From: Lentisphaeria bacterium
GTDB lineage: Bacteria; Verrucomicrobiota; Lentisphaeria; Victivallales; Victivallaceae
Length of the DNA stretch: 64,000 nt
Assembly (NCBI GenBank): GCA_017456285.1
Contig: JAFTJQ010000032.1
Span: 1 to 64,000, forward strand
Direction of reading: 5' to 3'
The translations under genes were made by a program, and so were the position numbers. Of this stretch, positions 26,272 through 26,520 are shown one piece after another. Positions within the stretch are counted from its first letter, which is position 1, and the number at the start of each line of letters is the position of its first letter. The notes under the pieces are model-generated. The model saw only the letters and a program-made list of their open reading frames with translations, ran no database searches and was not told the DNA's origin.

Positions 26272-26361
26272 ATTATCTAAATCCTTAAATTTTTTTACGT
26301 TCAGTTATTATAAATCAAATAAAAAATATTTTTCGCGAACAGCTTAAATTATCATCGTTAT

Positions 26362-26463
26362 CTATAGACACAGCAAAGCTGTCCGCATACTAAGTCGCTT
26401 GTGCAACAATAGTTCGGCAATAAACAATCGAAAACCAAAATATTTTTTATTAAAATTTGTCAT
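26362..26463 (-). CDS. Candidate leucine-rich leader peptide of leuA
   Basis: A 33-codon frame between the leuA promoter and leuA. It starts MTNFNK, as does LeuA itself, then reads to ...AELLLHKRL...ALLCL and TAG, with 8 Leu in 33 codons, including CTA-TTG-TTG in a row. Its RBS and first codons align with the leuA start region, so it looks like a partial duplication of it. After it, an ACAGC/GCTGT hairpin (around 26376-26391) competes with a downstream AAGCTGTTC (around 26343) for the same bases, which would suit attenuation. There is no direct proof of translation. Confidence 0.55.
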   Translation of the reverse strand: MTNFNKKYFGFRLFIAELLLHKRLSMRTALLCL

Positions 26464-26491
26464 TTTATTAAAACCTTCAACTTTTTTCGAT

Positions 26492-26520
26492 AATATAGCT
26501 TGCATATTATAAAATATCAA
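26492..26520 (-). promoter_or_regulatory. Promoter of the leader-leuA unit
   Basis: On the minus strand TTGATA (26520-26515) and TATATT (26497-26492) are exactly 17 nt apart. They lie about 29 nt upstream of the leader ATG at 26463 and about 220 nt upstream of leuA. Confidence 0.6.

Follow-up and report, generated by a model that had tools for sequence, protein, structure and literature searches.

The window, by which we mean the whole 64,000-nucleotide stretch of DNA analyzed here, comes from a member of the Lentisphaeria (phylum Verrucomicrobiota in GTDB). On its minus strand, a promoter-like TTGATA-17-TATATT sequence, the RBS GAAGG and a short, leucine-rich leader reading frame precede leuA, in that order, and the leader stop codon is separated from the leuA start by 90 nt. 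Positions of these and the other features discussed below are collected in Table 1.

Leucine codons make up 8 of the 33 codons of the leader frame, 3 of them adjacent, and the Leu share of the window genes is 9.2% (17,142 codons). The enrichment is unusual (P = 0.009), by itself moderate, and not decisive alone. A short frame with Leu codons upstream of a biosynthetic gene, conserved in relatives, is an arrangement characteristic of ribosome-mediated attenuators. An earlier note on this DNA had described the Leu-rich frame, its own RBS and a promoter with 17-nt spacing, and we found all 3 where they were expected. However, as a promoter the TTGATA-17-TATATT sequence is a weak candidate when taken alone, since our scan detected 5 sites of this type in comparison with 2.7 +/- 1.7 in shuffled sequences. 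The same CTTGATATTT box is present upstream of several relatives' leaders.

Table 1. Features of the leuA leader region in the window, with the basis of each assignment
Feature	Positions	Strand	Basis
Promoter-like TTGATA-17 nt-TATATT	26520-26515, 26497-26492	-	consensus scan 10/12; box recurrence in relatives
Leader RBS GAAGG	26478-26474	-	sequence
Leader peptide ORF MTNFNKKYFGFRLFIAELLLHKRLSMRTALLCL, 33 codons and stop TAG (26364-26362)	26463-26362	-	sequence; equivalent ORFs in relatives
16-nt start element GACAAATTTTAATAAA	26461-26446	-	genome pattern search, alignments, gene naming
Three-Leu run CTA TTG TTG	26412-26404	-	sequence; not kept within same genus
Conserved block CGACTTAG, read CGA CTT AGT (Arg-Leu-Ser), proposed control site	26397-26390	-	7-mer survey, phase test, own-genome count, relatives
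Stem P1, 5' arm TGCGGACAGCTT, within ORF, 10 nt after C of CGA	26387-26376	-	stem search, shuffle z-score, permutation test
Small hairpin ACAGC-TTT-GCTGT, alternative to P1	26382-26370	-	29/200 shuffles as good
Stem P1, 3' arm AAGCTGTTCGCG	26345-26334	-	stem search, shuffle z-score, permutation test
A-rich then U-rich stretch AAAAATATTTTTTATT after P1, candidate non-canonical termination region	26333-26318	-	
leuA, 2-isopropylmalate synthase	26271-24586	-	NCBIfam NF002991, E 3.9e-219

The CGA CUU A block in leaders of related genomes

In named genomes, close relatives of this leuA come from Lentisphaeria bacteria. We compared regions upstream of leuA in the family of the source organism (f1; 78 genomes, with leuA kept in 56), in other families of its order and class, and in families elsewhere in the phylum. 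The relatives are often MAGs with short contigs (the L007 contig begins inside the leader), and the starts of their leaders were assigned by rule. Among 130 leuA upstream regions, CGACTTA was the most widespread 7-mer that is not of low complexity, placed behind a T-run only. It occurred in 12 of the 43 family or genus groups and in none on the reverse strand, whereas the top 7-mer in 20 shuffled sets reached 10 groups and was A/T-rich. An open ATG frame ran through the block in phases 0, 1 and 2 in 22, 3 and 0, respectively, of the 26 cases considered. In the genome of the source organism CGACTTAG occurs 8 times, and only the copy in the leader is read CGA CTT AGN; the remaining 7 lie inside long genes in another phase (GAC TTA G). 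As a codon pair, CGA-CTT is absent from the 17,142 codons of the window genes, where 1.4 occurrences would be expected.

Leaders with the in-frame CGACT block were observed in 8 of the family's genera (g1, g4, g5, g6, g9, g13, g14 and g18), and in families f12, f13, f14, f15, f18, f25 and f41, as exemplified by L091 (MKVFVQYQLRLSRLLPVLLRG), L094 (MKRHAENLRLRGLRPSPWG), L203 (MNVAVQNLLRLTKLDNLLLG) and, from the Opitutae, L112 (MRDTSQALRLTNTHDR). In most cases the block begins 8-10 codons after the leader start. The CGA and CTT codons are fixed at their synonymous sites while the neighboring residues vary freely, a variant with CGA CTG being found in genera g14, g18 and g13. Although it encodes S, R, T or I, the codon that follows the CTT form keeps its first A, which places the nucleotides under constraint in addition to the peptide.

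One way to challenge the leader was to ask if relatives keep leuA and lose the Leu-rich frame, and the answer was mixed. In the same-genus genome G019, the leader (L006, MDIYCKIEMLFAETLRLSNGRRV) retained the frame, CGACTTAG and the stem described below, but only 3 of its 23 codons are Leu and the LLL run is gone. Judged from these comparisons, the Leu run is not the conserved part of the leader; the in-frame CGA CUU AGN is. None of the 28 loci sampled across the remaining families of the order has the leader. It is also missing from those members of family f1 in which leuA lies close behind a larB/purE-like gene (MEGALPSVV...; L014-L016, L022-L025 and others), and it is therefore dispensable.

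Two further kinds of leuA leader were seen in the survey. In families f20 and f30 (L183-L193) the leaders carry Leu runs (NNLLLGLLLLDGNDPAEAVCL; SLELLLLAGETLREFCAC) without CGACTT, and this type is itself conserved between species. In 2 Gammaproteobacteria MAGs (L137, L145) the leaders end LLRLPL and LLRLPALPAK, encoded with CTA CGA CTG CCG, which is possibly a related Arg-Leu block outside the phylum.

Start and origin of the leader

The leader and leuA begin alike, as the earlier note had remarked: 17 of the first 18 nt are identical, whereas among 1,081 pairs of window gene starts the best shares 15 nt. The 16-mer GACAAAYTTTAATAAA has 3 exact copies in the genome, marking the starts of the leader, of leuA (26269-26254) and of a cimA-like gene that adjoins ilvB on contig C13, and the reversed-sequence control had none. 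Because exact copies are found only at these 3 LeuA-family starts, local exchange or duplication among such starts is likely, affecting no more than the first codons and the context upstream of them; the shared start is possibly a local feature of recent age. A BLAST match on C13 to the leader start and promoter, considered as a second leader, proved to be the start region of the divergent cimA-like gene.

The further proposal that the leader itself originated as a duplicate of the leuA start was not supported. Leaders of relatives have unrelated starts, the 16-nt start is carried by the cimA-like gene too, and the leader is older: it does not derive from the leuA start, since its functional 3' half is common to genera whose leaders start differently. 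Nor is a separate origin of the mechanism in this phylum, as the same note had supposed, demonstrable, the leader being old and widespread in the phylum and Leu-rich frames occurring upstream of leuA across many phyla. As the 28 loci from the order's other families are without a leader that other families of the class possess, these absences suggest loss rather than a recent gain in family f1.

We also noted a perfect 15-nt complementarity between the leader start AATAAAAAATATTTT and AAAATATTTTTTATT, which lies after P1 (26456-26425 and 26334-26318, minus strand). This complementarity consists of A/T only and could be due to chance.

The P1 stem, alternative pairings and terminators

Downstream of the block, the window RNA can form a 12-bp stem, P1, between TGCGGACAGCTT and AAGCTGTTCGCG (z = -3.4), and this stem is conserved in relatives. 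Across the family, P1 is 9-13 bp long, usually begins 10-12 nt past the C of CGA, and has the leader stop codon in its loop; exceptions are L040-L044, where it lies farther downstream, and L009 and L035, where it is weak. Its arms covary between genera, in that only 27 of 40,320 permutations of arms among 8 genera matched the observed sum, in a test for which P1 had been found on the same sequences and every permuted pairing was re-optimized. P1 overlaps the codons past the control block, and thus the RNA has the alternative structures over the end of the leader frame that are seen in attenuators.

Two mutually exclusive pairings that share GGACAGCTT had been proposed in the earlier note. Both can be drawn, and the 12-bp stem is the conserved one of the pair. 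In contrast, the 5-bp hairpin ACAGC-TTT-GCTGT is no better than chance in the window, as 29 of 200 shuffled sequences gave one as good. Another stem, P2, whose loop contains the P1 3' arm, was observed in L043, L044 and L006; in the window it is weak (-5.1 kcal/mol, poorer than most cross-species pairings), and the corresponding pseudoknot model had modest and partial support in the family (636 of 40,320 permutations).

A terminator scan revealed no canonical terminator in the window, nor in most of family f1. The combination of P1 with the following AAATATTTTTT scored above 30 of 30 shuffled sequences, with the U-run offset, and AAAAATATTTTTTATT is possibly a non-canonical termination region; Rho-dependent termination in this genome is also possible. 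Canonical terminators with T-runs are present downstream of the same leader in members of other families in the class (L088, L091, L093 and L094; 0-1 of 30 shuffles as good). These 4 are canonical four-segment attenuators, and resemble the window in their in-frame CGACTTAG leader and in the gene that follows; they differ from it in possessing T-run terminator stems.

Probable leucine-dependent control of leuA and its alternatives

Leader attenuation is a textbook mechanism in enteric bacteria. Enteric leuL has a Leu-codon leader frame before leuA, with 4 rare Leu codons in a row and stems that overlap the end of the frame. The window arrangement is like that of the leuABCD leader (Rfam RF00512, Leu_leader) in its Leu-codon leader before leuA and its stems over the end of the frame. 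It differs in having the CGA-CUU-A block in place of 4 rare Leu codons, no clear terminator, and a leuA of the PRK03739 type. Rfam assigned no family to the leader: RF00512 was unmatched in the window stretch at E <= 5 and, at E <= 0.5, in 17 related loci. The LEU element of Actinobacteria has a Leu-codon leader peptide before leuA and a possible pseudoknot, as does the window; in its base stem, Leu codons are paired with the leuA Shine-Dalgarno sequence, and mutation of its leader had an outcome that did not fit classical attenuation (PMC1262725). A base stem of that kind was not seen in the window: it is absent among the best stems from the block to leuA, and inspection of the leader revealed no CCTT-type partner for AAGGA.

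We consider it highly probable that the window leader is a leucine-responsive leader-peptide attenuator of leuA and belongs to an old Verrucomicrobiota family. Control of leuA through a Leu-codon leader, the central suggestion of the earlier note, is supported by the leaders that occupy the equivalent position in at least 8 genera of the family and in further families across the phylum, several with canonical attenuators. Against it weigh the lack of a canonical terminator in the window and most of the family, the weak P2, the few Leu codons in L006 and the dispensability of the leader. A ribosome with CGA in its P site and CUU in its A site has a footprint that extends to about the base of P1, so that its position can decide whether P1 forms. 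We infer, then, that the leader would be transcribed and translated from its own start, and that when charged Leu-tRNA is low the ribosome would slow at the Leu codons, chiefly at the conserved CGA-CUU with Arg-CGA in the P site and Leu-CUU in the A site. The onset of P1 being close to the leading edge of a ribosome halted there, such a halt would decide P1 folding, and P1 folding would decide leuA expression. With ample leucine, the ribosome would translate as far as the stop codon within the loop of P1 and depart, P1 would fold and leuA would be attenuated. The output step in the source genome is put forward conditionally because that genome has no clear intrinsic terminator.

For CUU the genome contains tRNA-Leu(GAG), and CGA would be decoded by its tRNA-Arg(ACG) by way of inosine. 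Together with the observations that insertion of CGA codons in the his leader of Salmonella makes translation slower and readthrough higher (PMC4046918), and with the stress that attenuator theory lays on which synonymous control codon is used (PMC1183508), this tRNA set makes it plausible that CGA-CUU is a slow, leucine-sensitive step. A more specific proposal, which we advance tentatively and hold to be somewhat doubtful, is that CGA-CUU-A is a dedicated leucine-sensing unit in which a poorly decoded Arg codon precedes the Leu control codon and amplifies slowing at the edge of the switch stem. If this is true, what senses leucine in the phylum would be a conserved pair of codons, not a Leu run. 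A general rule that CGA precedes the control codon was rejected, as some trp leaders use CGT, CGC or no Arg codon before Trp; the Arg codons of trp leaders may derive from stem sequence.

It is unlikely, in our estimation, that P1 and its surroundings act mainly on leuA translation or mRNA stability rather than on transcription. Such action would accord with the missing intrinsic terminator in most of the family and with involvement of the Shine-Dalgarno box in the base stem of the actinobacterial LEU element (PMC1262725); however, the leader has no partner by eye for the leuA Shine-Dalgarno AAGGA, and terminators of transcription are clear in the class's other families. We regard as still less probable an arrest peptide, in which a nascent Arg-Leu motif would sense leucine or Leu-tRNA in the exit tunnel, in place of slow decoding of Leu codons. 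TnaC senses tryptophan in this manner, and outgroups conserve the short motif L-R-L followed by S, T or R at 8-10 codons after the start. Yet nucleotide conservation at the synonymous sites and at the A of the next codon exceeds what a peptide would need, and the residues beside the motif vary freely. Very improbable, in turn, is a programmed +1 slip from CUU to UUA governed by leucine supply. The slip is known from yeast Ty1, every leader that keeps the CTT form has an A after CUU, and a stem begins ~5 nt downstream, but some variants carry CTG and the +1 frame ends at unrelated distances between species (+13 to +259, or not at all), with no common product or stop; a regulated frameshift was rejected for want of a common end point. 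That no regulatory leader exists and the Leu-rich frame arose by chance is scarcely credible, for the moderate Leu enrichment would permit it but position, frame and CGACTTA are conserved across families.

The leader is of long standing in the phylum, and over large distances the synonymous positions of the codon block that marks it are frozen. It offers a directly testable case of an amino-acid sensor whose sensitivity seems to depend on codon context instead of on how many control codons there are, and the CGA-CUU block provides a simple sequence tag for locating such leaders. We found no account of leuA leader attenuation in Lentisphaeria or Verrucomicrobiota in the literature searched, which was covered incompletely.

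Upstream of ilvB there were only scattered BCAA-rich frames, with no CGA block. Leader attenuation of trp genes also seems widespread in the order Victivallales, in parts of which Trp-rich leader frames precede trpE (L335-L337, L350-L356), with GWRWQWR (CGA TGG CAG TGG) and SNRWQWRW among them; other trpE leaders in the order are of the GWWRWR and GWWWRS types. The source genome (G000, 98% complete) gave no trpE match and is possibly that of a tryptophan auxotroph. In genome G067, 2 Trp-rich leaders lie in tandem before trpE (L355).
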